A stretch of DNA of 39,026 nt from an uncultured Lewinella sp. GTDB taxonomy: Bacteria; Bacteroidota; Bacteroidia; Chitinophagales; Saprospiraceae. Location: NCBI GenBank assembly GCA_937949535.1, contig CALEDI010000082.1:1-39026 (forward strand). Direction: 5' to 3'. The notes beneath the pieces were generated by a model. The model saw only the letters and a list, made by a program, of their open reading frames with translations. It did no database searches and was not told where the DNA came from. This document shows positions 1,627 to 38,289 of this stretch, piece by piece; the first letter of the stretch is position 1, and every line of letters starts with the position of its first letter. A program made the translations under genes and the position numbers.

Positions 1627-1643
1627 GCACCTGCGGCCGCGCC
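1627..1643 (+). repeat. 17-bp NotI-containing motif, exact copy 1
   Basis: Exact GCACCTGCGGCCGCGCC, in the 211-bp gap between the solute-binding lipoprotein and the M1 peptidase. Three other exact copies occur in the window (6518, 30905, 33134). No gene reads through it. Confidence 0.9.
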
Positions 1644-1756
1644 CTAAGACTACGACTAAGCGCACACCAAAAGACCGCACGATTCAGTTCAACGTAAGAC
1701 ACCGTGCCCAAACCTTACTTTTTACGTTTTTCTACTAAATAACAATCTACTCTAAT

Positions 1757-3592
1757 ATGCGCATTTTACTTTTTTCAGTTTTTCTTCTCTCCGCCGTCAG
1801 CCTCGCTGCCCAGCCCGACCGCTGGCAACAACGGGCCGAATACACGATGGAGATCGACATGAACGTCAAGAAAAACCAGTACGCCGGCACGCAAACCATA
1901 AAGTACTACAATAACTCCCCAGATACGCTCCATCAGGTATTTTACCACCTCTACTTCAACGCCTTCCAGCCCGGAAGCATGATGGACGTCCGCAACCAGA
2001 TGTTGCCCGATGCTGATCGTCGCGTGGGTGACCGCATCACCAACCTCAAGCCCGACGAGGTGGGTTATATCAACCCCAAGGTGCTTAAGTACAACGGTGT
2101 CGCGCAGGCGTTTTACGTACAGGGAACCGTGATGGAAGTTCGGTTAGCCCAACCGATCATGCCGGGAACTTCGGCCTCTTTCCAGCTCGAATGGGATGCA
2201 CAGGTACCCCTACAAATTCGCCGTAGCGGCCGAGACAATGCCGAAGGCATTGAATACAGCATGGCCCAGTGGTTCCCCAAAATGGCTGAGTACGATTACC
2301 AAGGCTGGCACGCCGACCCCTACATCGGCCGCGAGTTTTACCACATCTGGAGCGACTTCGACGTCAAGATCACCATCGACCGCGACTACGTGATCGGCGG
2401 AACGGGCTATCTCCAGAATGCTCAGGAAATTGGCTACGGCTACGGCCCAGACCCGAGAAAACGCAAGAAAAAAATCACCTACCACTTCAAAGCGCCTAAA
2501 GTAGGCGACTTCATGTGGGCCGCAGACCCCGACTACCGCCACACCAGCCTGAAACGGGCCGACGGCACCACGATGCACTTCTTCTACCAAGAAGGCGAAA
2601 AAACCACTACCAACTGGGAAAACCTACCCAAGGTGATGGACGAGGCCTTCAACTTCATCAACGCTCATTACGGCCAGTACCCTTACGAGCAGTACAGCTT
2701 CATCCAGGGCGGAGACGGCGGCATGGAGTACCCGATGGGTACGCTCATTACCGGAGAGCGGAGCTTCCCGAGTCTGGTCGGGGTATCCGTACACGAACTG
2801 ATGCACAGCTGGTACCAGCACCTACTAGGAACCAACGAAGCGCTTCACCCCTGGATGGACGAAGGCTTCACCAGTTGGGCTACTGCCGATGTGATGAACC
2901 ACCTCCGCATGAAAGGCCTCCTCGGTGGAGACGTAGTAGACAACCCCTTCGCCCGCACCTACAACGGCCTGCGCAATTTCCGCACCAGCGGCCGCCAAGA
3001 GGCCCTCAGTACGCACTCCGATCATTACGCAACCAACGCCGCCTACGGCGTAGCAGCCTACACCAATGGCGCCGTTTACCAAGAGCAACTTCGCTACATC
3101 GTTGGCGAAGATGTACACCAGCGCATCATGCTCCGCTACTTCAACGACTGGGCCTTTAAGCACCCGAACCCCAACGATTTTATCCGTATTGCGGAGAAGG
3201 AGTCTGGCTTCGAGCTTGATTGGTACAATGAGTACTTCATTAACTCCGTCAACTACGCCGACTACGCGGTAAAAAGCGTAAACGAAGGCAAAGGCAAAAC
3301 CACTAAGGTTGAGCTGGAGAAGATCGGGCGTATGCCGATGCCGCTCGAAATACTGGTCACGATGAAAAACGGTGATGAGAAGTGGTACTACATCGCGCCC
3401 CAAATCATGCGCGGCACCAAGCAGCGACCAGGATACGCTGCCAACTGGAAGGTCCTCCAAGATTGGGGCTGGGTTTACCCAACCTACATCTTCACGGTGG
3501 ATGCGCCGAAAGACGACGTAAAGTCGGTCATGCTCAACCCTACCGGCCGTATGTTTGAAGACAATATGGAGAACAATACTTGGAAGTATTAG
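1757..3592 (+). CDS. M1 family zinc metallopeptidase, secreted
   Basis: This 611-residue protein is a gluzincin aminopeptidase of the M1 family. It opens with a Sec signal peptide (cleavage near SLAAQ, residue 19). An N-terminal beta-domain is followed by the catalytic domain with HELMH at 346-350 and the third zinc ligand Glu369, exactly the HExxH-x18-E spacing. A GGMEY segment near residue 321 replaces the usual GAMEN exopeptidase motif that binds the substrate amino terminus; the Glu is kept. The protein is expected to trim peptides in the periplasm or outside the cell. It is shorter than the roughly 850-residue PepN enzymes and resembles the compact Bacteroidota secreted forms. It is flanked upstream by the 17-bp repeat and downstream by a strong hairpin at 3630, suggesting a single-gene transcript. 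Peptidase identity is near certain; the natural substrate is not visible. Confidence 0.92.
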   Translation: MRILLFSVFLLSAVSLAAQPDRWQQRAEYTMEIDMNVKKNQYAGTQTIKYYNNSPDTLHQVFYHLYFNAFQPGSMMDVRNQMLPDADRRVGDRITNLKPDEVGYINPKVLKYNGVAQAFYVQGTVMEVRLAQPIMPGTSASFQLEWDAQVPLQIRRSGRDNAEGIEYSMAQWFPKMAEYDYQGWHADPYIGREFYHIWSDFDVKITIDRDYVIGGTGYLQNAQEIGYGYGPDPRKRKKKITYHFKAPKVGDFMWAADPDYRHTSLKRADGTTMHFFYQEGEKTTTNWENLPKVMDEAFNFINAHYGQYPYEQYSFIQGGDGGMEYPMGTLITGERSFPSLVGVSVHELMHSWYQHLLGTNEALHPWMDEGFTSWATADVMNHLRMKGLLGGDVVDNPFARTYNGLRNFRTSGRQEALSTHSDHYATNAAYGVAAYTNGAVYQEQLRYIVGEDVHQRIMLRYFNDWAFKHPNPNDFIRIAEKESGFELDWYNEYFINSVNYADYAVKSVNEGKGKTTKVELEKIGRMPMPLEILVTMKNGDEKWYYIAPQIMRGTKQRPGYAANWKVLQDWGWVYPTYIFTVDAPKDDVKSVMLNPTGRMFEDNMENNTWKY

Positions 3593-3629
3593 CGTCTGGT
3601 CGTCAGATAGGCCAGTAGTCTGGTAGTCG

Positions 3630-3658
3630 CTGCCGCACGGGGATGTCTCGTGCGGCAG
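3630..3658 (+). terminator. Hairpin terminator after M1 peptidase
   Basis: CTGCCGCACG and CGTGCGGCAG form perfect 10-bp arms around a 9-nt loop, 37 bp after the peptidase stop. The following TTGCTGTTTATT is only moderately T-rich, so it is a probable rather than certain intrinsic terminator. Confidence 0.6.
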
Positions 3659-3694
3659 TTGCTGTTTATTACGTAGCGCTTCGATGGAGGCTAA

Positions 3695-3713
3695 GGAATA
3701 TACATAAGTTGAC
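3695..3713 (-). repeat. 26-bp repeat family, partial inverted copy
   Basis: Read on the minus strand, this 19-bp stretch matches the first 19 positions of the copy at 147 with one mismatch. It lies 221 bp from the oppositely oriented copy at 3935-3960. Confidence 0.6.
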
Positions 3714-3721
3714 ATGACCAC

Positions 3722-3775
3722 AAAACCCCACCCCCAGCCCCTACCCCATTGGGGAGGGGAGCAAAACCGCTGCGG
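3722..3775 (+). repeat. C-rich ~55-bp repeat, copy A
   Basis: The unit runs AAAACCCCACCCCCAGCC, a C-rich run, a CCCC/GGGG mini-hairpin, GGGAGGGGAGC and an AAACCGCTGCGG-type end. The same order of blocks is seen inverted at 3861-3915 and directly at 30782-30838. Copies A and B face each other and could base-pair through their outer C-rich/G-rich ends. Confidence 0.65.
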
Positions 3776-3860
3776 CTGCCGCCTTCGCTAAATCGTTGGT
3801 AACTGCTGTTGTTATCCTTTAGAGACAAATTTGGGCCGTTACGACCAATTTCGCCCAAAA

Positions 3861-3915
3861 ACGCATTGCGTTTTCACAAGCTCCCTCCCTCACGGGCAGG
3901 GTTGGGGTGGGGTTT
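3861..3915 (-). repeat. C-rich ~55-bp repeat, copy B (inverted)
   Basis: On the minus strand this reads AAACCCCACCCCAACCC, a central C/G hairpin, GGGAGGGAGC and GAAAACGCAATGCG, the same block order as copies A and C but diverged in the tip. It is non-coding. Confidence 0.65.
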
Positions 3916-3934
3916 CAGCACTCAACTGCCCCAT

Positions 3935-3960
3935 GTAAACTTATGTATACCCCGTAGACT
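3935..3960 (+). repeat. 26-bp dispersed repeat, copy 2
   Basis: This copy is identical to the one at 147-172 except for two bases near the centre. Its last four bases begin the REP-like hairpin at 3957-3996. Confidence 0.7.
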
Positions 3961-3996
3961 TGTAATCCGACTATATGCTAGGTCGGACTACAAGTC
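3957..3996. repeat. REP-like inverted repeat
   Basis: GACTTGTAATCCGAC (3957-3971) pairs with GTCGGACTACAAGTC (3982-3996), one mismatch in 15 bp, around a 10-nt loop. There is no T-run, so it is more like a repetitive extragenic palindrome than a terminator. Confidence 0.65.
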
Positions 3997-4115
3997 CTTC
4001 ACCGATCAAAAAACATTAACCCAAGAAGCAACGTTTCTCCCCGCCACGGTATCAAACCCACGAAGAGCACGTTTACACCAACCAAGGTCTTTTGAGAGAT
4101 CATCGCCATTCATGC

Positions 4116-5333: not shown

Positions 5334-5352
5334 GAGGGTTTCCAGAATCCCG

Positions 5353-5360
5353 TACCTTAG
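5353..5360 (+). promoter_or_regulatory. Promoter-like box directly before an ATG
   Basis: TACCTTAG lies four bases before the ATG at 5365. It resembles TAnnTTTG with two changes. If active, transcription would start at or very near the start codon and give a leaderless mRNA. A similar arrangement precedes lnt (23819) and the gene starting at 31726. Confidence 0.35.
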
Positions 5361-5364
5361 CCCA

Positions 5365-6462: not shown

Positions 6463-6468
6463 AGATGT

Positions 6469-6507
6469 ATACTTGGCTCGGCCACCCTAGGTGACCGAGT
6501 CAAGTAT
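6469..6507. terminator. Long imperfect hairpin after the EEP gene
   Basis: ATACTTGGCTCGG (6469-6481) pairs with CCGAGTCAAGTAT (6495-6507) with one G-T pair. The loop holds an inner CACC/GGTG stem. It sits 6 bp after the stop. It lacks a T-run and is followed at once by the 17-bp motif, so it may protect the 3' end or be a REP-like element. Confidence 0.5.
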
Positions 6508-6517
6508 AGTTGTAGGT

Positions 6518-6534
6518 GGCGCGGCCGCAGGTGC
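6518..6534 (-). repeat. 17-bp NotI-containing motif, exact copy 2
   Basis: Exact GCACCTGCGGCCGCGCC on the minus strand, between the EEP gene and the DUF6503-like lipoprotein, 10 bp after the hairpin at 6469-6507. Confidence 0.9.
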
Positions 6535-6566
6535 AGGGGGAGCTAAGAACGTTCAGGCCGCCAGAT

Positions 6567-6612: not shown

Positions 6613-6645
6613 CGCCTACAACATTGCACCTTAAAGCCCATCTTT

Positions 6646-6663
6646 GCACCCGCGTTCAGCGCC
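6646..6663 (+). repeat. Diverged 17-bp motif near a promoter
   Basis: GCACCCGCGTTCAGCGCC keeps both ends of the 17-bp motif with an altered, one-base-longer middle. It overlaps the end of CATCTTTG, a possible -7 box, about 50 bp before the lipoprotein ATG at 6696. Confidence 0.45.
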
Positions 6664-6695
6664 CTGAACATACTACCATAAAATAAAAATCCAAC

Positions 6696-12139: not shown

Positions 12140-15100
12140 ATGAAAAAGTTTTCCTCGTTTCTTTCCTTGCTCTTTGTCCTTCTTCCTTGCACCTGCGTCA
12201 GCGCCCAAAACATCGGAGCCGACCTAGCGCGTATTGTGCGCCATACCGAATCTGCGCGTGAGGTCGGTACAGCCACCAAGAACCCTTCTTTAGACACGAT
12301 CGTACTGACGTTGGCCTATTATGGTGGTATGCCCGATATGGACAAGGTCAATGCGTTGCTGTCTGGCTCGGAGTTGCTGGTTCATTACGCCGGCAACCCC
12401 GCCATCAGGGGGTATTTGCTTGACGAGGAGCTTGACGTTTTGCTAGAGGCCTATACCCCTCCGGCGGGGCTAAGTATTCCCGCCTCGATGGCCGCCGAAG
12501 GGCGGGCGAAGTTTCTGGAAAAACTAAGCGGAGCAGAGCTTTTTAGCCGAGACGGGGCCATTGACCTGCGAAAAATCCACGATACCTACGCCGCTCCTGC
12601 CCCGTCAGACATCAGCCTAAAAGCGGCCGCCGCCGCCGCTGCCCAATCAAGCCCAGGCGGGATATCCACCGCAAACCTAGTCGGCAACGCACTGGCTGGT
12701 TTGTCTGACTGGATCAGCCGCCGTGCCCAGGAAGAACTCACATACACCTTCCTGACCAACCTCCGAGACGACCTGCAACGCAACAACCTCAACTACCTCT
12801 TCCCCAAAACGAGCGAGTTCTTGCCTACGCTAGACTTGCTGAGCTACAAATCCATCCTGCCCAGCATTCGGAAAGCCTTCCTAGAAGACCTCAATGCGCT
12901 GGCTTTTAACCTCGGCAATTACCTAGACAACCGCAAAACCGAGACCTTTCGGGACCCGACCATCTACAATGTCTTCCTAATTTACCGCATTCTGGACCTG
13001 CAAATGCGGGACGTGAGCTTGGCCGAAATCTTGTCTTACACCTACGGCGAGTTGGAGCGTACCCGTATAGATACCCGTCGCCTAATTGATCTTCGTATGG
13101 CGGGGGTAGACACCTCCAGCGCCAGCTACAAAAGCATCGTTGATGCCTTCAACGGCCTTATGCTAGCAACCGATGAGCTGAACGCAAACTTTGAAAAAGC
13201 CCAAGACAACCTGAGTACCCAGCAGTTTGACCCACTGCTAACAAAAATGCAGGAGGCCACGCTGTCTGAAAAACAGATGAACAGCTTGCTCGGCCAAATC
13301 AGGGAGGTATACTCGCCCATCAACGACGCCATACTCCCCCTAAAAAACAATTACCGAGAGAACGGCACCAGCCCCCCGCCAAGCGGCATCGTAAAGTCTT
13401 GGCTGAACGGCCAAGAAGCCTACAAATACTACGAAGCTTACCCCAGCCTGACGCGCTACGACGAGTTGTTTGGCGAAGCAAAAACGGTACTCTCCCCCGC
13501 AGAACTCCGCGCGGCTGGCCTAACGGCCGTTCGGGAAGTACTCGCTAACCGGAACAAGCTGGATGGGTACAATAGCCTGATGCAAAAGATGTTTGATGCG
13601 CGGGAAGAACTCATCCAACTAGACCTAGCGGTAACCAAAAACAAAAACCTAGTAGCACGCGAAAAACTGACACAGGAAAAACGCCTACAACAACTGAAAC
13701 AAGACCTTGAAGAAGAGCTGAACTTCAGGTCTGCGCCAGCCCTCAGGATGCTTAGAAGTCTTGCTGAAGAAATCGTTTCACTAGATACGCCAGCGGCGAA
13801 GGAACAGATTAAGTCTGTAGAAATTCGGCTACGGGAGTTTGTTGTCAACGAAGAAAACTCGAACTCTCCGCTCTGGCAAAAAATGCAGGCGAGCCCCAAG
13901 CAAGCCGCCTACTTTCCGCCCCTCCAACAACGGCTTGACAACGTACAACTAGCGTATGATGACCTGCACGCAGCCATGACCGACTACACAGCGAACACCG
14001 CCGATAGCCTAGTAAGGTCTTACTACAACCTCTCTACTTTTGAAACCGTATTCGGGATTGCCCAACAGGTTTTCTTCCTGCTCTCCACGGGGGAAGATCG
14101 CCAACCCTTCGTGAGCAACCGCCAACTGGCAGACTTCCAGACCAACGCCACCGCGCGCAAGCTTTTTGCTGGCCTCGGCCGAGAGCGTTTGGCGCGGGTT
14201 CCAGACCTAGCAAACGCCACCAGCCAGCGAGACGCCAGCGGGCGCGTACTAAAAGCAGGAGCTTTTTCTAGCACCGGCATAACCGACTTCCTCCTCGACT
14301 TCGGTTTATACCTCGCCGATTTTCAGTACGCGACCTTCAGCCCAGACCTTGAAAAACTCGACGGCCGCGCCCGCCAACGGGTAGCAGCGGTAGACTTCAT
14401 CACCAAGACCCTTTCCACACTACTGGAAGCTCCAATCCTTAATTCTAGCGCAGGCGAAGCCATGAGCCTGGCGCAGAAGTACCCAACCTTCGCCAACGTC
14501 CCGGCGGTAAACCGAGAGCTCAATAAGCTCTTCCGGCAGAGCCGAACGGGGGAATACCGCTACGCGATGGAGAACTTGCTGGAACTCATCAAGCTGTTCA
14601 ACATCGTGCCTACGGCGCGTGGTAGAGAGAAAAAACTGATTGCACGGCGAGACAAACTGCGCAAGTTGATCTACGAAAACGTAGTAGAGAACGAGTCCAA
14701 TATGAGCAACATTGGTCTCGCCCTGCCCAAAGGAGACCGTTTGCCACTGGTAGGAAACAACGACCGCGACAAGCTACTGCTGGCGCGTTATGAGACCGAA
14801 CGCAACACCCCAGGAATAAGCACTTACGCCCGTACGGATGCCGACAATAGTATCCGAGACTTGAAAATTCGCCGCATTCAGGAAGAACTCTCTCGGGTTC
14901 AGACGAAGATAAAGAAACTCAACCCCGAACGCACTGACCAGTTCCGGGCAAAGCTCTTCCGCTACGGCACCTTCATGGCCGACGTGGCGAAGGCCAACAC
15001 CTCCAATGAGTTCGAGACAGCGATCAATTCCATCGCGCTGCCGGTAGGCAGCTCACAGATCAAGCGCAACCGGGCGAGCAGTTTGGAGTTGGGGGCGTAC

Positions 15101-18037: not shown

Positions 18038-18054
18038 GCACCCGCGTCCGCGCC
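18038..18054 (+). repeat. Diverged 17-bp motif upstream of ackA-pduL
   Basis: GCACCCGCGTCCGCGCC differs from the consensus at two positions and is preceded by CCTT as in other copies, then followed by CAAAAAAA. It lies 93 bp before the kinase ATG and could be in its leader. Confidence 0.55.
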
Positions 18055-19976: not shown

Positions 19977-20849
19977 TTACCACGTACGAAGCGCCCCATC
20001 GTAAAAAGTATACTCCGCCGTTCGGAGTGTTTCTCCGAAGTCTTCGCTGAGGTTATACCATGGGTTTCCGTCAGTATACTTTGGGTTGACAAGTACGTGA
20101 ATATCCTGCGCAGGCATGTAGCTTTGGGCGAGTAAGACGGCAATTTCTCCCGTTTGAGGGTCAACGGCCTTATCGACCACAATGACCGCGTGGCCGGGGC
20201 TACCGCCTTTGATGAGTACATCACCGACTTCGATGTCTTCGTTTTTCTGGGGCGTTAGTTCGTGCACCAGCGAGGCGGTGCCAGCGAAGCTAAAAACCAT
20301 AACGAGGTATTTATGGTAGGCGGCTTTGCTTGGAGTGGGGCCGCTGCTGGGCATCCAGTTTACCTTATTCCCCTTCACTTTAATCCTTTCTCCGTTTCGC
20401 CAGCGGGCGTATTCTGCGTTGAAGCCGCTCACGAAATTGAAGTGGATGTCTGAAAACCGCTTTTGCGCGAACAGGTAATCTGCGCGGAGGCGCATTACGG
20501 CGTCGGCGCATTGTTGCAGGTCTCGTTCCCCAACGGATACGTCTAGCACAGCGGCGTGGGCGTTCTGGTTGTACTTTAATTCGCCGTTGAACAGGCGCAC
20601 TTTCGTACCGTGTGGTTTTAGTGGTTGGTGCTGTAGGTAGTGGCCAAATTTGTGCGCTTCGTATTCTGCTCTAACGAAGCCTTCGGGCGGCAAAAAACGC
20701 TCAGCAACCGTCTTCCCGTCCGGATTTAGCCAGGGTGAGCTGGCCGCTTGACCGACATCTACCGTCGTCGGTTCCGAAGTATTGGAGGTGGCGGGGCCGC
20801 AGGTGCAAAGCAAGGTAAATAGGAGCAAGGTGAAGGCAGGGCGGGTCAT
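19977..20849 (-). CDS. DUF4846-family exported protein
   Basis: This 290-residue protein begins with a signal peptide whose end reads LLCTCGPA (Cys15 and Cys17). Neither Cys has an ideal lipobox, so lipidation is possible but unsure. The mature part fits DUF4846 as I know it: RFLPPEGFVRAEYEAHKFGHYL near residue 51-72, ADAVMRLRADYLF, then RWRNGERIKVKG and VFSFAGTASLVHEL, and a GDVLIKGGSPGHAVIVVDKAV stretch carrying a His that may be catalytic, reminiscent of NlpC/P60- or transglutaminase-like folds. No reaction is established. It is convergent with ackA-pduL across 15 bp containing a short GCACC/GGTGC hairpin. The signal-peptide codons contain a near-exact 17-bp repeat. Confidence 0.75.
   Translation of the reverse strand: MTRPAFTLLLFTLLCTCGPATSNTSEPTTVDVGQAASSPWLNPDGKTVAERFLPPEGFVRAEYEAHKFGHYLQHQPLKPHGTKVRLFNGELKYNQNAHAAVLDVSVGERDLQQCADAVMRLRADYLFAQKRFSDIHFNFVSGFNAEYARWRNGERIKVKGNKVNWMPSSGPTPSKAAYHKYLVMVFSFAGTASLVHELTPQKNEDIEVGDVLIKGGSPGHAVIVVDKAVDPQTGEIAVLLAQSYMPAQDIHVLVNPKYTDGNPWYNLSEDFGETLRTAEYTFYDGALRTW
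20790..20806 (-). repeat. 17-bp motif variant inside DUF4846 signal peptide
   Basis: On the minus strand GCACCTGCGGCCCCGCC, one mismatch from the consensus. In the gene's frame the preceding T completes codons for CTCGPA. The CocE/NonD gene has the identical 17-mer at 38233. Confidence 0.8.
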
Positions 20850-21258: not shown

Positions 21259-22698
21259 TCATTGCACCTGCGCGCCGTCGCCCTCCTCCTCCGCAGGCCT
21301 AAACGGCGGGCGTTTTTCTGCATCCATTTCGGCTTGCAGGCGTTCGATGAGTGCTTTCATTTCGGCGGTTTTTTCCGGAAACTTATCGGCTACATTATAC
21401 TTTTCGGCGGCGTCTCCTTGGAGGTCGTACAACTCTAGGCCGGTGCTTTCGTAGCCGTAATCTCCGCGCTCGCCGTCGTCTCCTACCTTGGTTACAAAGC
21501 GGAAGCTGTGCGGCACATGGAGCTTCCACTTGCCCACCCGAACGGCATCTAGGTTGCCGGAACGATAGTAACAAAAGGGTGCGTTATTTGGCGCGCGCGC
21601 AGGATGCCGAAAATCGGTAAAGAGTTCGGATACATCCTGGCCGTCGAGCTTTCTATCGGGCAATTCCGCTTCGCTAAGCGCAGCAAAAGTGGGCAAAACA
21701 TCCGTTAACGACGCTACCCGATGGCTGATGTTTCCGCCCTCAATCTCCGCCGGCCAGCGGGCAATCATCGGTACCCGCATACCGCCTTCGTAGGTAGTAC
21801 CCTTGCCTTCTCGGAACGGCCCCGCCGAGCCCGCTTGGTTGCCGTAGGTAAGCCACGGCCCGTTGTCTGATGTGAAGATCACCAGCGTGTTTTCGTCCAA
21901 TCCGAGCGTCTTCAGCTCCGCCAGTATTGTCCCGACGGAGCCATCAATTTCCTCCACCACATCAGCGTAAAGCCCCTGCTTGCTGAGGTCTACGTAAGCA
22001 TCGCCCACGAAAAGCGGGATGTGCGGCAACGAATGGGCGAGGTAGAGGAAGAAGGGCGTGTCCTTGTTTTCGCGGATAAACTCGACAGATTTTTCCGTGT
22101 ACCAGCCCGTAAGCAAGGCTTGATCTGGGTTGTAGGCGACCGTTTTCTCGTTGTCGTAAACGGGTAGGTCAGGGTAGCCCGCCTCGGGCAGCATATCGTT
22201 GCTGTAGGGCAGTCCGAAAAAGCTGTCGAATCCGTGGCGAGTCGGCAGGGTTTCCTTCCAGTGGCCGAGGTGCCATTTGCCGACCATCCCGGTGGTGTAG
22301 CCTGCCGTTTTCAGGACTTCGGGCAGGGTTGTTTCTTCGGGGTTTAGGCCATACTGCTTATCGGCGGTCCATGATGGGCCGGGAGGCCCGATGACGTCGG
22401 GGATACCGACCCGTGGGGGGTAGCAGCCCGTCATTAGTGCTGCTCGGCTCGGCGAGCAGGAGGGGAAGGCGTAGAAGTTGGTCATTTTGAGGCCTTCGGC
22501 CGCCATGCGGTCTAGGTTGGGCGTATGAATACGGGTGGAGCCGTAGCAGCTCAGGTCTCCGTAGCCGAGGTCGTCGGCCATGATGAAGATCAGGTTGGGC
22601 TGGGTGGGCGGTGCTTCCGAAGAAGGCGTTGGCTCGGCGCAAGAACTGATCGTCAAGAGAAGGGAACAAAGCGATAAGAGGTGGTTGAAACTGGGCAT
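21259..22698 (-). CDS. Formylglycine-dependent sulfatase, lipoprotein
   Basis: This 479-residue protein is a type I sulfatase of the arylsulfatase/alkaline phosphatase superfamily. A lipoprotein signal ends at Cys20 (LTISSC). NLIFIMADDLGYGD carries the calcium-binding Asp pair (42-43), and CSPSR at 81-85 is the formylglycine maturation motif, so Cys81 is the catalytic residue after oxidation. GKWHLGHW and a later FTSDNGPW supply further active-site residues. It should remove sulfate esters from polysaccharides or glycans, at the cell surface or periplasm, and needs a maturase encoded elsewhere. No PUL-type SusC/SusD pair is close, so the substrate is unclear. The final codons (GDGAQVQ-stop) lie on a diverged 17-bp repeat, so the last residues may be a recent addition. 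Confidence 0.92.
   Translation of the reverse strand: MPSFNHLLSLCSLLLTISSCAEPTPSSEAPPTQPNLIFIMADDLGYGDLSCYGSTRIHTPNLDRMAAEGLKMTNFYAFPSCSPSRAALMTGCYPPRVGIPDVIGPPGPSWTADKQYGLNPEETTLPEVLKTAGYTTGMVGKWHLGHWKETLPTRHGFDSFFGLPYSNDMLPEAGYPDLPVYDNEKTVAYNPDQALLTGWYTEKSVEFIRENKDTPFFLYLAHSLPHIPLFVGDAYVDLSKQGLYADVVEEIDGSVGTILAELKTLGLDENTLVIFTSDNGPWLTYGNQAGSAGPFREGKGTTYEGGMRVPMIARWPAEIEGGNISHRVASLTDVLPTFAALSEAELPDRKLDGQDVSELFTDFRHPARAPNNAPFCYYRSGNLDAVRVGKWKLHVPHSFRFVTKVGDDGERGDYGYESTGLELYDLQGDAAEKYNVADKFPEKTAEMKALIERLQAEMDAEKRPPFRPAEEEGDGAQVQ
21264..21282 (+). repeat. Diverged 17-bp motif at the sulfatase 3' end
   Basis: GCACCTGCGCGCCGTCGCC keeps the GCACCTGCG half and a GCC end with two extra bases. It overlaps the last codons of the sulfatase, which is on the minus strand, and encodes GDGAQV. 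Confidence 0.4.
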
Positions 22699-23830: not shown

Positions 23831-25606
23831 ATGCGTTTACCTCAACCCCGCCGCCTAGCGTTCATCTTCTTAGCCATCGCTGCCGTCATCGGCGGGTCGA
23901 TGTATTGGCGTGCGCAGCAGGAGGAGCTTTGGGGATATGCGCCGCTGCTACTGTATATGTTTTTGTTTGGGGCTTACTTCTTGTTGCGCAACCATCCGCG
24001 CAAGGGTTCGCCAAAACCGGGCTATCGGTTGCCGCTTTACGCTGGCCTGCTGCTGGGGGTTGGCTTTGCGGGAGACATCGGTCTTTCCCCTACCCTATTC
24101 GTAGGTTTTGTGCCGCTGTTCTTGCTGTACCGCAAGCTGCGGGAACGCGATGCGGGCTACGGCGAGGTGTTTCGCCATGGCTTTACGGCCTTTTTATTGT
24201 TCAATATCTGGACGACGTACTGGGTCACCAACACCGGTTTTGGGGCGGGCTTCTTCGCCATGCTAGCCAACAGCGCGCTGATGTGTTTGCCTTGGATGGC
24301 GTTTTACTGGACGGGGCGGAAATCGCCCAAGGTCGCCTTCCTCGCCTTCGGCGCGTGCTGGGTTGCCTTCGAGCACCTCCACTACAACTGGGGCCTCAAC
24401 TGGCCGTGGCTCACGCTGGGCAACGGCTTGGCCAACTGGCCGTCCCTGATTCAGTGGTATGAGGTCACGGGCGTGCTCGGTGGTTCGGTCTGGATATTGG
24501 GGTGCAATTACCTCGTTTTTAAAACCTTCTTTGCACCCGCTGCCGAGCCCCAAAAAACACCAAGCCTAAGCAAAATACTGCCCTTGGCTGCGCTTTTCCT
24601 GCTCCCGCTTGCGGGTTCCTTGGTAAGGTTTTACACCTACGCCGCGCCCAGCGCGGAAACGATTACGGTTGGTGCCATCCAGCCCAATTTTGAGCCGCAC
24701 TTCGAGAAGTTCTCGGCGGGCGGAGAACCGGCCGTCATCGACACGTTCGTCCGGCTCAGCAAAGCCGCCCTCGCCGCTGGGCCGCTAGATTATCTCGTAT
24801 TTCCGGAGACCAGCTTTAGCAATTTCGAGGAAGATCGGCCCCTCCTGAACGGCCCGATGCGCATCTTGCAGGCCGAGTTGGCAAACACTAGCCTCGGCTA
24901 CCTCATCACGGGCTATTCCGGCTACCACGCCTTTCAGGCCGGGGAAACCCTCAGCGATGCCGTGCGGATCCTCGACCGAGGAAACGGAACCACCTTCCGC
25001 TACGAAGCCCTCAACGCCGCCCTCCAATTGGACCTAAAAAGTAAGGAAACCCAACACTACCGCAAGGGCGTTTTCGTGCCCGGCGCGGAGTCTTTCCCCT
25101 TCCGCGATGCCCTCTTTTTCATGGAGCCGCTAGTGGCCAGCGTCGGCGGAACGGTTGCGGGCTTAGGTACCCAAGAACGGCGCACGCCCTTCGTTTCGCC
25201 GAAGGCGAAAATCGCCCCCGTGATCTGCTACGAATCTGTGTTTGGGGAATACTTCACCGACTATATCCGCGAGGGCGCGCAAGCCATTTTCGTGATGACC
25301 AACGACGGCTGGTGGGCCAATACGGCCGGCCACAGACAGCACCTTTACTACAGCAGTTTGCGCGCCATCGAGACTCGGCGGGCGGTTGTGCGCTCGGCCA
25401 ACGTCGGGGCCTGCGCCTTCATCGACCAGCGCGGCCAAATCTTAAGCAGAACCGCTTACGACGAAGCCGGTTTCCTACGCGGCGAGATGCGGCTCAACGA
25501 CACGATCACGCCCTACGTCCGCTTCGGAGACATCCTCTCGCGGATCGCGCTGCTGCTGGCGGGGATGGTTTTACTCAGCAATTTGGCGCGGAGTTTGCGG
25601 AAGTGA
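23831..25606 (+). CDS. lnt: Apolipoprotein N-acyltransferase
   Basis: This 591-residue inner-membrane enzyme adds the third acyl chain to lipoproteins. The N-terminal half has about eight hydrophobic segments, including GWNWPWLTLGN-like GLNWPWLTLGNGLANWP, a recognised Lnt signature. The nitrilase-type periplasmic domain begins near residue 285 and carries the triad Glu326 (FPETSF), Lys412 (HYRKGVF) and Cys466 (VICYESVFGEYF), followed by FVMTNDGWW. All catalytic residues are present. A last hydrophobic segment closes the protein. It is at the long end for the family because of the loop at residues 230-250, whose codons overlap a weak match to the 17-bp motif. Several lipoproteins in this window would be substrates. 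A hairpin array separates it from the Omp85 gene. Confidence 0.93.
   Translation: MRLPQPRRLAFIFLAIAAVIGGSMYWRAQQEELWGYAPLLLYMFLFGAYFLLRNHPRKGSPKPGYRLPLYAGLLLGVGFAGDIGLSPTLFVGFVPLFLLYRKLRERDAGYGEVFRHGFTAFLLFNIWTTYWVTNTGFGAGFFAMLANSALMCLPWMAFYWTGRKSPKVAFLAFGACWVAFEHLHYNWGLNWPWLTLGNGLANWPSLIQWYEVTGVLGGSVWILGCNYLVFKTFFAPAAEPQKTPSLSKILPLAALFLLPLAGSLVRFYTYAAPSAETITVGAIQPNFEPHFEKFSAGGEPAVIDTFVRLSKAALAAGPLDYLVFPETSFSNFEEDRPLLNGPMRILQAELANTSLGYLITGYSGYHAFQAGETLSDAVRILDRGNGTTFRYEALNAALQLDLKSKETQHYRKGVFVPGAESFPFRDALFFMEPLVASVGGTVAGLGTQERRTPFVSPKAKIAPVICYESVFGEYFTDYIREGAQAIFVMTNDGWWANTAGHRQHLYYSSLRAIETRRAVVRSANVGACAFIDQRGQILSRTAYDEAGFLRGEMRLNDTITPYVRFGDILSRIALLLAGMVLLSNLARSLRK
24533..24549 (+). repeat. 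Weak 17-bp motif match inside lnt
   Basis: GCACCCGCTGCCGAGCC differs from the consensus at three positions and, like the copy at 18038, is preceded by TT and followed by a C-rich then A-rich run. It encodes APAAEP in a loop of Lnt. It could be chance. Confidence 0.3.
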
Positions 25607-25614: not shown

Positions 25615-25735
25615 CCCCGTACTTATACGGAAGACAAACTACAGGCGTAGTACACCACAACAATCGCCCCGTACTTATACGGAAGTAAAACTACACCTGT
25701 AGTAAGTTGGCAATCACCCCGTACTTATACGGAAG
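25615..25735 (+). repeat. Three-copy hairpin array between lnt and the Omp85 gene
   Basis: CCCCGTACTTATACGGAAG occurs exactly three times (25615, 25667, 25717), 52 and 50 bp apart. Each copy contains a CCGTA/TACGG stem with loop CTTA. The first two spacers also hold a second small stem (CTAC/GTAG and CTACA/TGTAG). The array fills most of the 167-bp gap and ends about 38 bp before the next ATG. Confidence 0.85.
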
Positions 25736-25773
25736 TACAACAGCACCGCCCCACCCAACGTTCCCAACAAACA

Positions 25774-27513
25774 ATGTGGCGATTACTACTACTTTTCTGG
25801 GCGCTAACGCAGGTGCAAGGCTCCGTTGAAGGGCAAAGCTCCTTGGCCCTAAACGTAGTCGCTACCGATTTCGAATGGAAGGACAACACCCCCGTCTTCC
25901 CCGACTCGGCCGCCATCCTTGCCTACCTCCAAGATTGGATCGCCGAGGCCCAGCGTAAAGCCTATTGGGAAGCCTCCGCAGACAGCCTTTACCGTTCTGG
26001 CCAAGCCAGTTTCACGGCGGTGCTCCACCGGGGCGAAGCCTACGCTTGGGCGGGCCTAACACCTCCGGAAGATGAGGATGTCCGCCGCTGGCTCCGTCGC
26101 TCCGGTTTCCGAGAACGCCGCTTCGCCGCTGGGCGGCCGCTGCAACCCGACGAATGGAACGGCATCCGAGACAGTACGCTAGTCCGGGCCGCCAATGCGG
26201 GCTACCCCTTCGCGGCCATCGGCCTCGAAGACGTCTCGCTGAGCGAAACCGGCGCGCTTTCGGCCAGCATCGCGCTGAACACCGGCCCGCTCGTCCGCGT
26301 CGGGGAAGTGCGCGCGCCGGAGCGCGTGCGCGTGCGGCCCGCTTTTTTGCAGCGTTACCTCGGCTTGCAGGAAGGCGAAGTTTACCGCGAGCAACGGGTC
26401 CGCCGGATGGCCTCCAGCCTCCGCCAACTCCCCTACCTGACCATGAAGGGCAACCCACGCATCAGCTTTCAAGACAGCCTCGCCTTCTTCGATCTACCGC
26501 TGGAGAAACGAGCGGCCAGCCGGTTCGACTTCGTCATCGGTGTACTCCCCAACTTCGCCCAGACCGGCAAACTCCTCATCACCGGAGAGCTCAACGGCGA
26601 GTTGCAAAACGGCTTCGGGCAGGGCGAACGCATCGCCGTTCGGTTCGAGCAACTCCGGCCGCAGACGCAGGAACTGGAGCTGGGCTTAGAATACCCCTTC
26701 CTCTTCGGCCTACCCTTCGGCTTCGAGGGCGAGCTAGACCTGTACCGCCGAGACACCTCCTTCCTCAACCTCAACTGGAAGCTCGCCGCCACCTACCTCC
26801 GCGAAGGCAACGATCGCCTCTCCGCCTTCTGGGAAAACCGCCGCACCATCGTACCGGGCCAAGACCTCAGCCAGGTATCAATAGGCGGGAACTTACCCGA
26901 CACCCTCGGCGTGGCGCGCTCTTTCTTCGGCCTTCAAGGCCGCCGCAAACGGACCGACCGCCGCTTCAGCGCGCGGCGCGGCTACACCCTCGATGTTAGC
27001 GCGGCGGCGGGTTTCCGCCGCCTGCCCGCCATCGCTGGCCTCGACCCCGATGAGCGGACCTCCGCCCAAGCACAACTCCAAGCCGCCGCCGAACTCTACC
27101 TCGACCCGATTCCGGGAACGGTTATCTATTTCCGCCTCAAAGGAGCGGGCATTTTTAGCGGCGAAGACCTGCTGCCCAATGAGCAATTCCGCATCGGCGG
27201 CGCGCGGCTCCTTCGGGGCTTCGACGAGCAATCCGTCTTCGCCCGAGATTACGCCGTGCTCACGACCGAGTTTCGTTTGCTGCTTGGCGGCAATGCCTTC
27301 CTGTATGGTTTCCTCGATGCGGCCCGCGTCAACTCCCGCGATAAAAGCAGGCCCGCTCTGCCGATTGATTATCCGCTCGGCTTCGGCGCAGGCATCAATG
27401 TGGATACGCAGGCGGGGGTGTTTGGGCTTAGCCTTGCCTTGGGCAAGAGTAATGGGATACCGCTGATGCTGGATGCACCGAAGGTGCATTTGGGGTACGT
27501 GAGTGTTTTTTAG
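25774..27513 (+). CDS. Omp85/BamA-family outer-membrane protein
   Basis: This 579-residue protein looks like a member of the Omp85 superfamily. A signal peptide ends near residue 20. Residues about 25-245 are POTRA-like (AANAGYPFAAIGLEDV, LNTGPLVRVGEVR, YLGLQEGEVYREQRVRRMASSLRQLPY), which is the classic POTRA strand-helix-strand series. The rest is a beta-barrel with many alternating strands, and ARLLRGFDEQSVFARDYAV (about 476-494) is the LRGF-type motif of loop 6. It ends in aromatic VSVF, a barrel-insertion signal. Omp85 proteins insert or export outer-membrane proteins or lipids. At this size with two to three POTRAs it is closer to TamA or FhaC-like proteins than to full BamA, so a specialised role is likely. 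It follows lnt and faces porQ. Confidence 0.85.
   Translation: MWRLLLLFWALTQVQGSVEGQSSLALNVVATDFEWKDNTPVFPDSAAILAYLQDWIAEAQRKAYWEASADSLYRSGQASFTAVLHRGEAYAWAGLTPPEDEDVRRWLRRSGFRERRFAAGRPLQPDEWNGIRDSTLVRAANAGYPFAAIGLEDVSLSETGALSASIALNTGPLVRVGEVRAPERVRVRPAFLQRYLGLQEGEVYREQRVRRMASSLRQLPYLTMKGNPRISFQDSLAFFDLPLEKRAASRFDFVIGVLPNFAQTGKLLITGELNGELQNGFGQGERIAVRFEQLRPQTQELELGLEYPFLFGLPFGFEGELDLYRRDTSFLNLNWKLAATYLREGNDRLSAFWENRRTIVPGQDLSQVSIGGNLPDTLGVARSFFGLQGRRKRTDRRFSARRGYTLDVSAAAGFRRLPAIAGLDPDERTSAQAQLQAAAELYLDPIPGTVIYFRLKGAGIFSGEDLLPNEQFRIGGARLLRGFDEQSVFARDYAVLTTEFRLLLGGNAFLYGFLDAARVNSRDKSRPALPIDYPLGFGAGINVDTQAGVFGLSLALGKSNGIPLMLDAPKVHLGYVSVF
25800..25816 (-). repeat. 17-bp motif variant inside the Omp85 signal peptide
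   Basis: On the minus strand GCACCTGCGTTAGCGCC, three mismatches from the consensus and one from the copy at 12189. It runs against the gene and encodes ALTQVQ. Confidence 0.6.
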
Positions 27514-29224: not shown

Positions 29225-30142
29225 CTATGCCACTTCGTGGCCAACGGCGGCTTCGAGGATGGCGAACCAGTCTTGGGTTTCTAGGTCGAGTTCGAGGGCG
29301 AGGCGCGTAGCGCCTAGGCGGCTTTTCTTGGTGGTCCCCACAACCGGAATCGGCCCAACGGGGTGCTTGAGCAACCAAGCCAACAAGATTACATCTTCGC
29401 CGACATCGCCGTATTTTTTGGCCAAGTTTTTCACCGTATCACGTAGGCGCAAAACGGAAGTAGACTCGCTCTTGAAGTATTGAGCGCCGCCGAGCGGGCT
29501 CCAGATCATCGGCCTTATGTTGGCGCCGAGGAGTTGATCAAAAGTACCATCGTAGAAACAATCGGGGTGCAGGGGATGGCATTCTACTTGGTTGGTAACC
29601 AAAGTGACCGACTGGCTCAGGAGCTGGAATTGGCTTGGGGTGAAATTGCTTACGCCGAAGGCGCGGACCTTTCCGGATTGCTCCAGATGAGCAAAAGCTT
29701 CAGCGACTTCGGCGGGGTCCATCAGCGGGCTGGGGCGGTGGAGCAGGAAGACGTCTAGGTAGTCGGTATGGAGGTTTTTCAGGCTCCGCTCGGCGGAGGC
29801 GATGATGTAGTCTCGGCTCAGGTCGTAGCTTTTCAGGCGGTTGTCTGGTCGGCGGCTGGTTTCCAGCCGGATGCCGCATTTGGTGATGAGTTCCATTTGG
29901 GCGCGGACGCTGGTGCCCAGTTCGTTTAAGGCACGGCCAAAGACCTCTTCGGTGGCGTAGTGTCCGTAAATATCGGCATGGTCGAAGCTCGTGATGCCAA
30001 GATCAAGGCAGTGGCCGATCATCTCCGCCATTTTGGGCGCGGGGAAATCACTGCCCCACTCGCCCCAAGTCATCGTTCCCGCAACGATGCGCGAAAGGGA
30101 AGGGCCGCTAGGCGAAAGTTGTACCTGATCTACTTTTGTCAT
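29225..30142 (-). CDS. Aldo/keto reductase, YdhF-like
   Basis: This 305-residue cytoplasmic TIM-barrel enzyme is an NAD(P)H-dependent aldo/keto reductase. The tetrad is Asp54 (FDHADIYG), Tyr59, Lys88 (LITKCG) and His135 (LLHRP). Cofactor-site segments GVSNFTPSQF and IPVVGTTKKSR near the C-terminus are present. The order IVAGTMTWGEWG, HADIYGHYATEE resembles the YdhF branch of AKR proteins. The start at 30142 is preferred; an upstream in-frame ATG at 30205 would add 21 low-complexity residues. It lies upstream of the gamma-carbonic anhydrase-like gene. The physiological carbonyl substrate is unknown. Confidence 0.9.
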   Translation of the reverse strand: MTKVDQVQLSPSGPSLSRIVAGTMTWGEWGSDFPAPKMAEMIGHCLDLGITSFDHADIYGHYATEEVFGRALNELGTSVRAQMELITKCGIRLETSRRPDNRLKSYDLSRDYIIASAERSLKNLHTDYLDVFLLHRPSPLMDPAEVAEAFAHLEQSGKVRAFGVSNFTPSQFQLLSQSVTLVTNQVECHPLHPDCFYDGTFDQLLGANIRPMIWSPLGGAQYFKSESTSVLRLRDTVKNLAKKYGDVGEDVILLAWLLKHPVGPIPVVGTTKKSRLGATRLALELDLETQDWFAILEAAVGHEVA

Positions 30143-30307: not shown

Positions 30308-30331
30308 GGCTACCACAAAACCACCAAGCCA

Positions 30332-30904: not shown

Positions 30905-30921
30905 GCACCTGCGGCCGCGCC
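30905..30921 (+). repeat. 17-bp NotI-containing motif, exact copy 3
   Basis: Exact GCACCTGCGGCCGCGCC, in the gap between the TMEM220-family gene and the convergent membrane gene. It is followed at 30949 by a CCTGAACACTGA repeat that runs up to the stop of the membrane gene. Confidence 0.9.
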
Positions 30922-31726: not shown

Positions 31727-31730
31727 AACA

Positions 31731-33133: not shown

Positions 33134-33150
33134 GGCGCGGCCGCAGGTGC
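33134..33150 (-). repeat. 17-bp NotI-containing motif, exact copy 4
   Basis: Exact GCACCTGCGGCCGCGCC on the minus strand, in the divergent CotH-like/GntP promoter region. Confidence 0.9.
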
Positions 33151-34687: not shown

Positions 34688-34693
34688 CATAGG

Positions 34694-36142: not shown

Positions 36143-36174
36143 AATAAGTTGTTGTAAGGATACATTTTAGGGCA

Positions 36175-36336
36175 GTTACAGCGGATTATCAAAATGCATA
36201 TTCCGCTGCAACCATTCAAAAATACGCCCTTGCAGCGGATTATCCAAAATCATAAGCCGCTGCAACCGCCTCAAAAAAGGTAGTTACAGCGGATTATGCA
36301 AGCTTATATCTCGCGGTAAGTCTGTGAAAGATGTAC
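36175..36336 (-). repeat. 54-bp-periodic palindrome array upstream of the ATPase gene
   Basis: GTTACAGCGGATTAT or a close relative starts at 36175, 36229 and 36283, exactly 54 bp apart. In units 1 and 2 an inverted copy (TTCCGCTGCAAC at 36201, AAGCCGCTGCAA at 36254) follows, giving stems; unit 2 pairs 13 of 14 bp. Unit 3 keeps only the first arm well. The array lies on the promoter side of the ATPase/nuclease-like gene. Confidence 0.85.
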
Positions 36337-36414
36337 CACGGATGGTTTCAGGATCTGGAGATAGGGCACTACCCAAAGGCAGCGGAACCCTCACGGCCTG
36401 AAGGCCGGGCAACC

Positions 36415-38289
36415 CTACCTCACCACCGGAATACGCACAACACTAGGATACTCCGCTGAGTGGTGGACCATATTTTGGGCCACTACGCCTTTGCTTTCGT
36501 CGTAGTTCCGGCCACCGGTGTTCAGGTTGCGGCCGAAGCGGGGGAAGTTGGAGCTGGAGACTTCGATGCGGATGGAATGGCCGGGCTTGAAGTAGTTGGC
36601 CGTAGACATTGGCGTGAGGTCCACTTTATAGACCTTGCCTTTCTCCATGAAGACTTCCTTATCGTAGCCTTCGCGGTAGCGGACGCGCTGGATGGTTTCG
36701 TCGAGGTTGTAGGCGGTTCCGTCTGGGGCTACGTCGATGAGTTTGACGGTGAAGTCGGTGTCTTTTGCGTCGGAGCTGACGTAGAGGGTGGTCTCGATGC
36801 TACCGGCGATCTCGACGCCGTCGGCGAAGGGTTCGGTGGTGTAGACGAGGATGTCGTTGCGGGTTTCCATGATGCGCTGATCGAAGGCGCCGCCTTTGAC
36901 GGCGTTGCCGGTACAGCAAACATTGCCGCCGTAGCTGGGTACGGGGTTCATGGGGTCGTAGAAGAAGCCGTCGGGCTTGTCCGTTGCGGGGGCTGTGTTG
37001 CTGAGTCGGCCGTTGCCGTGGAGGGTGTTTGCGCTGCCGTCGGAGTCGAGGTAGAAGGTCTGCATTTGGGCGGCTGGCGGAGGCCAGGCGGTGCTGGTTT
37101 TCCATTCATTGCTCCCCATAACATAATACTGCACCCGCGGCCGCGCCACCTGCTTCTCCCCTTTCAGGTGTTGGGCAAAAAAGGCTTCGATCTGTTCTTG
37201 GTAGTTGAGCCGCGCATCGCCAACGGAACGCTCGCCAACGATGGTGTTTTCGGTTGCCCGCGTGTACGCGCAGTGTAGCGTTGGGGCGATGACGAGGAAC
37301 TGCTCGTCTCGCATCGCCTCCGTCGTCGCGTTCTTACGCACGTGGTTGAAGAGGGCGAGGTTGGGGCTGATGGAGACGTCGTACCAACTCGTGAACCAGA
37401 AGGCGGGCACGTCGAAGGGCATATCGTCGTGGTAGAGGCCGCCTTCATACCACGCTTTGCTGCTTGGGGTGCGGGTTACCATTTCTTCAAAGATGCCCTT
37501 GGGGCCGTTTTGGGCCCTGATGATGTCTTGCAGCGGCAGGGTTTTCAGGCCGTCTTCCCATTCCACTTTCGGGTATTCCGGGGCCATATCGTGAAATCGC
37601 TGGATGCGCAGCAGGTCTTCGCGCGTTGCGCTTGCGGGGATGCGGGGCCGCATGGGGTCGTGTTGGACGCTGTAGAGCCAGGCGATGAACAACATCTGGG
37701 TTGCGCCGCCTCGGTACCAGTTGCCCTGCTCCTGAAACTGTCCGATTTTGCCGACGCCCGCTCCGTAGCCCTGCGGCACAATGGCCTTGAGGGCGGGGTG
37801 GCCGAGGGCCGCGACGGCCATCTGCCATTCGGCGGTAGACGAGCAGCCGAGTAGGCCGATGTTGCCGTTGCTCCAGTCGCGGTCGGCCAGCCAAGTGAAG
37901 GCGTCGGGGCCGTCGGTGGTTGGCGTGCCAAGGATGTCCCAATCGCCCTCGCTGTAGTAGCGTCCGCGTTCGTTTTGCACTACGTAGGCGTAGCCGGCTT
38001 TCACCCAGTCGAGGGCGCGCTGGTAGGTGCGGGAGCGTTCTTTTCCGTCTACCCAGCCGTTCATCTGGTAGGGCGTCCGGCTCAGGATGATGGGTACTTT
38101 TTTGTCGGTTTTGGGCCGGTAGATGTCGGTGGCGAGGCGGATGCCGTCGCGCATCGGGGCCATGTGTTTCTGCTCGATGTGGGCGATCTCGGCCAGTTCG
38201 AGGTAGGCGGGGCTAGACTGGGCCGCTATTTGGGCGGGGCCGCAGGTGCAAAGTAGGAGTAAGAGGAGCAGGGGGAGGAGTTGGCGCAT
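36415..38289 (-). CDS. CocE/NonD-type alpha/beta hydrolase (X-Pro dipeptidyl-peptidase-like), secreted
   Basis: This 624-residue protein has a signal peptide (the stretch [17 protein letters not shown], cleavage near AAQ24). It has the CocE/S15 plan: an alpha/beta hydrolase core with [14 protein letters not shown] near 46-59, the nucleophile Ser150 in [12 protein letters not shown], and a C-terminal jelly-roll domain ([36 protein letters not shown]). In this branch the nucleophile motif reads G-C-S-S instead of G-x-S-Y. Members cleave X-Pro dipeptides, esters such as cocaine, or glutaryl amides, so the substrate is unknown. It is probably periplasmic or surface exposed. The codons of the signal peptide and one internal site carry 17-bp motif copies. 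It is divergent from the DUF4058 gene. Confidence 0.88.
37131..37147 (+). repeat. 17-bp motif variant inside the CocE/NonD gene
   Basis: GCACCCGCGGCCGCGCC differs from the consensus at one position, in the body of the minus-strand hydrolase gene, where it encodes ARPRV. It runs opposite to the gene. Confidence 0.65.
38233..38249 (-). repeat. 17-bp motif variant inside the CocE/NonD signal peptide
   Basis: On the minus strand GCACCTGCGGCCCCGCC, identical to the copy at 20790 and one mismatch from the consensus. With the preceding T it encodes CTCGPA. Confidence 0.8.

Follow-up and report, generated by a model that had tools for sequence, protein, structure and literature searches.

An asymmetric, dialect-forming DNA word dispersed through a genus of Saprospiraceae, with exclusion of nearby copies in the same orientation

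Introduction

What kind of process scatters one short DNA word over both strands of a bacterial genome? The question is raised by a stretch of 39,026 nucleotides from an uncultured Lewinella sp. (Saprospiraceae; assembly GCA_937949535.1, contig CALEDI010000082.1), here called the window, which holds four exact copies of the 17-letter word GCACCTGCGGCCGCGCC. This is the reference word of the window; the form taken by the family genome-wide is GCACCNGCGNNNNCGCC. A first, sequence-only reading had regarded it as a genome-wide dispersed signal with a density comparable to that of uptake sequences or Chi. As described below, it is a genus-wide, asymmetric bipartite DNA word made of ACCnGCG, four to six bases and CGCC, bordered by semi-conserved flanks, and copies that point in the same direction exclude each other over short distances. 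We regard it as an almost evenly balanced matter whether the word is a directional, sequence-specific signal most like a DNA uptake sequence (DUS), by which the species would favor its own DNA for import or recombination, and would do so without type IV pili.

Abundance, Distribution, and Composition of the Word

The assembly from which the window derives (G000; 4.09 Mb in 335 contigs, 88% complete) was compared with 20 genomes of the same genus and 39 of the same family or order, which together make 60 genomes, all of them drafts. It contains 384 exact copies of GCACCTGCGGCCGCGCC (180 forward, 204 reverse) and 768 sites of the degenerate form GCACCNGCGNNNGCGCC, which bears out the proposed genome-wide dispersal and density; the word read backwards, used as a control, does not occur. 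Of the 21 genomes of the genus, 20 had exact copies, in numbers from 1 to 641; none of the 39 outside it had any. The degenerate form numbered at least 175 sites in 16 of the 21, and the remaining five had between 3 and 35; outside the genus five of the 39 genomes had 1 to 5 sites. At least 150 copies of some spelling were found in 18 of the 21 genomes. Both strands are used about equally, as in the congener G019 with totals of 427 and 421 for GCACCNGCGNNNGCGCC. Among the matches listed, many of the named contigs belong to Neolewinella agarilytica, N. persica, N. aurantiaca and N. lacunae or to Lewinella metagenome-assembled genomes (MAGs), and one to a Bacteroidia MAG, from which we infer that the genus of the window is Neolewinella. 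Single GCACCTGCGGCCGCGCC matches in other genera among those listed, mostly Actinobacteria and Proteobacteria, were taken for chance. Rarity elsewhere, a transposon end and an assembly artefact, which the sequence-only reading had named as grounds for abandoning such a signal, were not found within what was searched. No report of this word or of any Bacteroidota uptake sequence was found in the open-access literature searched.

The conserved unit comprises the core ACCnGCG-N4-CGCC and semi-conserved flanks. In 386 kb of G000, sites with zero to four mismatches to the word numbered 43, 25, 25, 18, and 32, and those of the reversed word 0, 0, 0, 7, and 57. The flanks of 68 G000 sites with zero or one mismatch show A at position −10, C at −8 and −4, a pyrimidine at −2 and T at −1, and on the 3′ side the word is followed directly by a C, beyond which the sequence is rich in A. 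With a weight matrix of 37 columns, 117 sites were located in 460 contiguous kb of G013 (reversed sequence: 0) and 113 in 384 kb of G005 (reversed: 2), the matrices having been partly trained on the sequence that they scanned.

Some observations concern where the word is sparse or has company. In three of 25 stretches along the 4.17-Mb contig of G013 (C14, positions 1260001–1280000, 1460001–1480000, and 3260001–3280000; loci L317, L318, and L327) there is zero or one site, versus 3–6 in the others; their GC skew is 0.026, 0.051, and 0.093, and they are possible islands. Viral contigs, of which 62 stretches were inspected, contain at most two copies each. Five of them (L401, L404, L405, L409, and L410), which probably represent one phage family, contain a pair of exact 17-mers that point the same way and are separated by about 3.6 kb. 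In N. lacunae (L095, L109, L113, L119, L121, and L127) the word is often directly adjacent to another dispersed element, whose end reads CTCCCCCCTTCGGGGGG..CGGGGGGGA.

Orientation and Spacing

Neighboring sites tend to point in opposite directions. This was the case for 86 of 116 neighbors in G013 and 86 of 112 in G005, where permutation of orientations gave means of 58 and 57 and none of 5000 permutations reached the observed values, and for 62 of 86 in the G000 pieces analyzed (1 of 5000 permutations). A sample from G019 (10 of 12 opposite; 608 of 5000 permutations as high) was too small. The alternation is not confined to close pairs, as 55 of 75 and 51 of 67 neighbors 1–6 kb apart are also opposite. 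It arises because the same orientation is excluded nearby: only 3 and 4 same-strand pairs lie within 2 kb of each other in G013 and G005, versus 29.8 and 33.2 expected, whereas opposite-strand pairs (32 and 34, versus 29.7 and 33.2 expected) are not depleted. Consistently, gaps between same-strand sites, with means near 7 kb, have coefficients of variation (CV) of 0.66, 0.48, and 0.50 in G013, G005, and G000, compared with 0.91, 0.83, and 0.76 after permutation, and counts per 10 kb are underdispersed (variances 1.45 and 1.37 at means of 2.54 and 2.92 in G013 and G005). The same pattern was found with the diverged spelling TACCTGCGCNCCGNCGCC of the congener G001, of whose 288 sites 99 of the 100 listed were used. 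Here 58 of 91 neighbors are opposite (54 of 5000 permutations), or 29 of 36 if only neighbors within 10 kb are counted (1 of 5000), and below 5 kb there are 2 same-strand and 16 opposite-strand neighbors; without contig C11, at which the listed sites end, the values are 34 of 49 (103 of 5000), 20 of 24 (11 of 5000), and 1 versus 10. Thus, alternation and same-strand exclusion hold in three genomes and extend to the diverged spelling of G001, an orientation rule that the sequence-only reading had not foreseen. Control 8-mers were not relied on: only two were available in G013 (alternation 0.50), and the 22 in G005 (mean 0.479, standard deviation 0.106, maximum 0.70) may include pieces of the word. 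Deletion between direct repeats was set aside as a likely cause of the exclusion, given the rates at which it usually proceeds.

An oriented word with such spacing could be a Chi-like signal, at which a helicase/nuclease is switched or stopped by the word in one orientation only, so that repair and self-recognition would require copies on each strand at intervals of a few kb. The direction-specific exclusion and the mean same-strand gap of about 7 kb agree with this, as does the density, the 113 sites in 384 kb of G005 being in the range of the 89 Chi sites in 350 kb of Escherichia coli K-12. A strand bias relative to replication, which had been proposed as a check, was not seen in the one congener where it was run (G013, 25 stretches: 43 sites plus, 52 minus), and its absence along this chromosome would suit a signal that is needed in both directions. 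However, Chi itself behaves in the opposite way: in the 350 kb of E. coli, 41 of 88 neighbors are opposite, 51 same-strand pairs lie within 2 kb versus 23.1 expected, and the CV is 1.36. Furthermore, the unit described here has 17 bp plus flanks, a degenerate center and a spacer that changes between congeners, whereas Chi sites are short words of about 5–8 bases. We therefore judge a Chi-like function unlikely, albeit the first alternative to be considered.

Base composition around the sites was also inspected. In G013 and G005 the GC content is 0.574–0.576 at 2–3.5 kb upstream and 0.586–0.587 within 1.5 kb downstream, with one far bin at 0.580, so that it rises toward the sites by about one percentage point within 4 kb, as recombination-linked GC bias or site-poor, AT-rich islands would give. 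The upstream/downstream skew pattern is that expected if genes point away from the sites. After regression on the coding strand, an oriented GC skew of about +0.01 remains positive in three genomes (approximately 3.8, 1.6, and 2.3 standard errors); it was not used.

Dialects

The spelling of the word differs between species, which had not been anticipated either. The three central bases are GCC at 45 of 77 sites in the species of the window and GCA at 55 of 95 in G013. Among the matches listed for G019, position 6 is C and the most frequent centers are ACC or TCC. G017 has a single exact word, yet TGCACCTGCGNNNNCGCC matches there 151 times, with C at position 13 in each of the 16 matches listed. 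G008 is enriched in the form CGGCCCCGCC. G001 has a diverged spelling: the exact word is missing, and its 288 copies of TACCTGCGCNCCGNCGCC face none of the reversed control; the other 35 genomes searched have 0 to 12. When G003, G006, and G020 were searched for gapped words, no clear spelling emerged apart from a weak one in G006 that resembles that of G001.

The NotI octamer noticed in the window is confined to the GCC spelling, the commonest of its own species, and the palindromic core is likewise absent from the other spellings; the palindrome is thus incidental. Since the central bases drift between species, neither a role for the palindromic octamer nor one in methylation, both of which the sequence-only reading had entertained, is supported. 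A recognition site of a methyltransferase or a restriction-modification system would share the bipartite form with a spacer, and in the window's own spelling it would include the NotI octamer, but such a site should not have central bases that vary within one genome as well as between congeners, nor long, degenerate flanks that are conserved, and we consider this explanation very improbable. Flanks conserved around a degenerate center are what would be expected of a word bound by a protein.

Placement Relative to Genes and Maintenance at the DNA Level

Genes were called with a home-made open reading frame (ORF) caller scored by codon usage, and not with a standard gene finder. By these calls, 51 of 91 sites in G000, 81 of 172 in G013, and 64 of 101 in G005 are intergenic, versus 18.2, 38.1, and 19.1 predicted by the fraction of non-coding sequence, so that the intergenic bias noticed in the window extends to all three genomes. 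Regions between divergent genes hold 21 of 49 and 24 of 78 sites in G000 and G013, where they make up 25% and 17% of the intergenic bases; in G005 they hold 13 of 63 sites versus 20% of the bases. Between genes in tandem, 49 copies share the direction of the genes and 57 are opposed to it. A function as transcription terminator was rejected: 26 of 190 assignable intergenic sites (six more, at the ends of pieces, were excluded) lie in convergent regions, which is below the share of these regions in intergenic bases in each genome. The copies within genes occur on both strands and in five or six reading frames, and encode bland peptides, e.g., APAAAP, GAAAGA, CTCGRAQ, and WARPQVQ, often in linkers or signal-peptide-like starts.

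Three of the coding sites were compared across genomes. In the gene of methionyl-tRNA synthetase (MetRS), 12 of the 21 genomes of the genus have the site CGCAGGTGC exactly; it is one letter or dialect step off in G001, G004, G009, and G016, and absent in G005, G010, G013, G015, and G019 and in all three outgroups. In isoleucyl-tRNA synthetase (IleRS), the site GGCGCNNNNGCAGGT is present in 7 of the 20 genomes of the genus in which the gene was matched (G009 gave no match), is one letter off in G005 and absent from all three outgroups; the protein loop at this place is longer in the species that bear the word. The IleRS gene at locus L161 (G000, contig C4) contains an inserted stretch that by eye resembles a DUF559-type endonuclease domain. 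A membrane protein has GCACCTGCG in seven of nine orthologs; that of G019 lacks it, and that of G007 differs by one letter. Codons at these kept coding sites are unfavored ones, GCA accounting for 5–16% of Ala and CCT for 6–15% of Pro in the seven genomes counted.

Orthologous places were compared in 386 kb of G000, 900 kb of G013, and 384 kb of G005. A copy in the same orientation within 200 bp was found at 6 of 21 places for G000–G013, 2 of 11 for G000–G005, and 4 of 20 for G013–G005, giving 12 of 52 as opposed to 5 of 103 when the positions were moved by 1.5 kb; the comparisons in the reverse direction gave 5 of 19, 3 of 15, and 3 of 28. Hence, turnover between these congeners affects most sites. 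Where copies are kept, the core persists and flanks and center change: in the four G013–G005 pairs position 12 is A in G013 and C in G005, in each case the commonest letter of the species, and in the six G000–G013 pairs it is A in G013 in four. Of 21 site alignments, several stop short of the word, and L033, from a genome with a single copy, aligns where the word is missing. A comparison upstream of gyrB was restricted to L145 and L054; L154 was rejected as a gyrB ortholog, its protein reading as ParE. Taken together, the word is kept at the DNA level both inside and outside genes.

A nucleoid-associated, chromosome-organizing or global regulatory protein might bind such sites, and the underdispersed spacing and the intergenic enrichment, clearest between divergent genes in two of the three genomes, would fit this. 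On the other hand, about half of the copies lie within genes, often deep inside them, no direction relative to genes is favored, turnover between congeners is frequent, and a joint change of spelling at hundreds of sites is hard to explain by regulation. This alternative appears rather unlikely to us.

The closest pairs of sites raise the alternative of a short mobile repeat, REPIN- or MITE-like (MITE, miniature inverted-repeat transposable element), which was moved by a RAYT or another transposase and has decayed to single words. Among 377 sites in 1.79 Mb, which include contig loci of a few other genera, pairs less than 100 bp apart comprise 11 divergent (spacers of 45–88 bp), 3 convergent (13–36 bp) and no direct ones, versus 7.8 of all kinds expected, and the 66 places listed for G002 include seven divergent pairs with spacers of 59–68 bp. 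RAYT-type genes (Y1_Tnp, PF01797) are present in 20 of the 21 genomes of the genus; 17 of 33 RAYT loci have some copy of the word with at most three mismatches, and three (L171, L182, and L195) are bracketed by divergent near-copies, two of them closely. Nevertheless, the RAYT loci examined (L170, L171, and L183) have other repeats of their own, and G018 harbors 341 exact copies but no Y1_Tnp match (95% complete, 880 contigs). Most sites are single, orthologous copies retain the core while flanks and center change, and where copies lie in MetRS and in the membrane protein, the alignments show hardly any inserted codons or none, although the IleRS loop is longer where the word is present. We also know of no REPINs with same-strand exclusion over 2 kb, which counts against this origin as well, and altogether a mobile repeat seems improbable. 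The RAYT-type genes at L183, L170, and L171 lie inside arrays of their own repeats, for instance 16 copies of a 67–68-nt unit in G005.

A Proposed Directional, Uptake-Like Signal

The interpretation that we prefer, though by a verdict close to balanced as stated above, is that of an uptake-like signal, and it would involve the following steps. Some protein or complex would bind the word in double-stranded DNA, and the bound machine would act one-sidedly on a few kb of adjoining DNA. If word-carrying DNA were favored, copies would arise and spread by molecular drive, and because they would spread in this way, a nearby second copy in the same direction would add little. The process itself would most likely be one in which the species' own DNA is preferred for import or recombination. 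This interpretation is supported by the abundance of the word and its confinement to the genus, by dialects that each number hundreds of copies and in G001 alter the spacer, by the flanks conserved about a degenerate center, and by the intergenic enrichment together with the varied orientations and frames within genes. Further support comes from the kept coding sites with their unfavored codons, from the same-orientation copies at orthologous places with letters particular to each species, from alternation and same-strand exclusion, and from the presence of ComEC and the competence of Riemerella described below. In our reading, the same-direction exclusion reflects a process that works to one side only, over roughly 2 kb. 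A stronger claim, which we hold to be less likely than not, is that the word constitutes a new kind of genomic signal, oriented, dialect-forming and with same-strand exclusion, which in these Bacteroidota would be read by a machine working in one direction over about 2–3 kb, for polar uptake of self-DNA or for self-recognition, without type IV pili.

The genomic evidence for uptake machinery is mixed. ComEC was found in all 20 genomes searched, outgroups included, and does not discriminate, because the five outgroups searched possess it too. A search with PF00437, the family of PilB/PilT/GspE-type ATPases, in 15 genomes of the genus yielded only partial matches of about 19–25.5 bits in long frames (pilins were not searched), of which six were marginally above the curated cut-off and were judged not to be pilus ATPases; a full match (417 bits) occurred only in the outgroup G035. 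Any uptake machine would therefore have to be of another type. Riemerella, another member of the Bacteroidota, is naturally competent, and its machinery is described as unique in a report on a transposon screen (PMC8459023). A non-pilus machine in Neolewinella would parallel what the Riemerella screen suggests.

Several points weigh against an uptake-like signal. Besides the uninformative ComEC, no convincing PilB/PilT-type ATPase was found in the 15 genomes of the genus searched, and both competence of Neolewinella and a receptor for the word would have to be postulated. Three genomes (G003, G006, and G010) have few copies in the forms tried, and 40 of the 52 orthologous places have no same-orientation copy within 200 bp. 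The spacing of about 60 bp in divergent pairs is REPIN-like and is not predicted by uptake. Nor is the exclusion rule predicted by known uptake systems, since the orientation of the uptake signal sequence (USS) of Haemophilus influenzae is reported not to affect uptake (PMC1939737).

Should an uptake-like signal be confirmed, the directional footprint, which is visible in the sequence alone, would provide a handle on a new DNA-handling machine. A comparable word in the Bacteroidota would also make the debate on drive versus selection of uptake sequences testable in a separate lineage, one in which numerous species have dialects. The test for same-strand exclusion can be applied to any dispersed motif.

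Copies in the Window

At up to three mismatches, GCACCTGCGGCCGCGCC has 12 sites in the window versus 0.33 expected, and none of 100 shuffles attained this number. The four exact copies were found where the sequence-only reading had placed them, and, as it had stated, they occur in both orientations and between genes, outside every ORF of at least 150 aa: those at 1627..1643 (+) and 6518..6534 (−) lie between ORFs, that at 30905..30921 (+) lies between ORFs and adjoins another dispersed repeat, and that at 33134..33150 (−) lies between divergent ORFs. Of the nine diverged copies that had been named in addition, six fit the family form GCACCNGCGNNNNCGCC. These are GCACCTGCGTCAGCGCC at 12189..12205 (+), in a signal-peptide-like start (CTCVSAQ); GCACCCGCGTCCGCGCC at 18038..18054 (+), between divergent ORFs; GCACCTGCGGCCCCGCC at 20790..20806 (−) and again at 38233..38249 (−), in signal-peptide-like starts (CTCGPAT and CTCGPAQ, respectively); GCACCTGCGTTAGCGCC at 25800..25816 (−), antisense in a signal-peptide-like start; and GCACCCGCGGCCGCGCC at 37131..37147 (+), antisense inside an ORF. 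The other three fall outside the family form. The copy at 24533 has three mismatches, that at 6646 has a spacer longer by one base, and ACCTGCGCGCCGTCGCC at 21264..21282 (+) has a spacer of six bases, ACCTGCG-N6-CGCC, as used by the congener G001, and may be due to chance. A further family copy, GCACCAGCGTCCGCGCC at 29900..29916 (−), has two mismatches, lies inside an ORF, and had been overlooked. Six of the seven diverged copies of the family type are thus located in ORFs, 18038 being the exception, and four (12189, 20790, 25800, and 38233) are in signal-peptide-like starts.

Other repeats are present as well. The segment 30741–30881, directly beside the exact copy at 30905, is part of a dispersed family of about 100–200 bp that also occurs in L006, L028, L030, L147, L149, L162, and L166. 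The repeat TCGCGCCGGAGGCGCTCAACCCAG of the RAYT locus L170 is found just upstream of 21264. Three tandem repeats of about 50 nt, which start with CCCCGTACTTATACGG, occupy 25615–25754, and three of 54 nt around (T)GCAGCGGATTAT occupy 36171–36319. An inverted element, GTAAACTTATGTATA..CCGTAGACT, occurs in three places (147–172, 3688–3716, and 3932–3960).

Comparison with Known Systems

HIP1 of cyanobacteria is a very abundant 8-bp palindrome whose role is unknown; the word described here resembles it in being short and very abundant, but is asymmetric and has flanks and dialects. REP and REPIN elements of RAYT transposases reportedly form hundreds of extragenic copies, some of them in inverted pairs, and these features are shared. 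They are unlike the present word, however, in that its 17-mer has no REP-type hairpin (by eye), its copies also lie within genes and change their spelling in place, and it is not consistently linked to RAYT genes. With Chi it has in common the orientation, the genome-wide occurrence and a similar density, but the Chi word is short, and in the 350 kb of E. coli it clusters on the same strand instead of being excluded.

To our knowledge, self-recognition words with dialects are confined to the Neisseriaceae and Pasteurellaceae, where they are thought to be read by pili regardless of direction. In the Neisseriaceae the dialects of the uptake words are reported to agree with phylogeny (PMC3630211), and an extragenic excess of uptake words, with many copies in coding sequence, is reported as well (PMC1939737, PMC2397512). 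The word of the window differs in its host, a member of the Bacteroidota in which no convincing type IV pilus ATPase was found, and in the spacers of its close inverted pairs, which measure about 60 bp as compared with 0–14 bp reported for terminator-type USS pairs (PMC7811141). It also differs in its same-strand exclusion, the USS being reported as indifferent to orientation (PMC1939737), although the Haemophilus and Neisseria words may share such exclusion. With the DUS and USS it shares the over-representation of a short, non-palindromic word in hundreds to thousands of copies with extended flanks on both strands, the intergenic excess, the copies placed in permissive coding sequence in several frames, and the formation of dialects.

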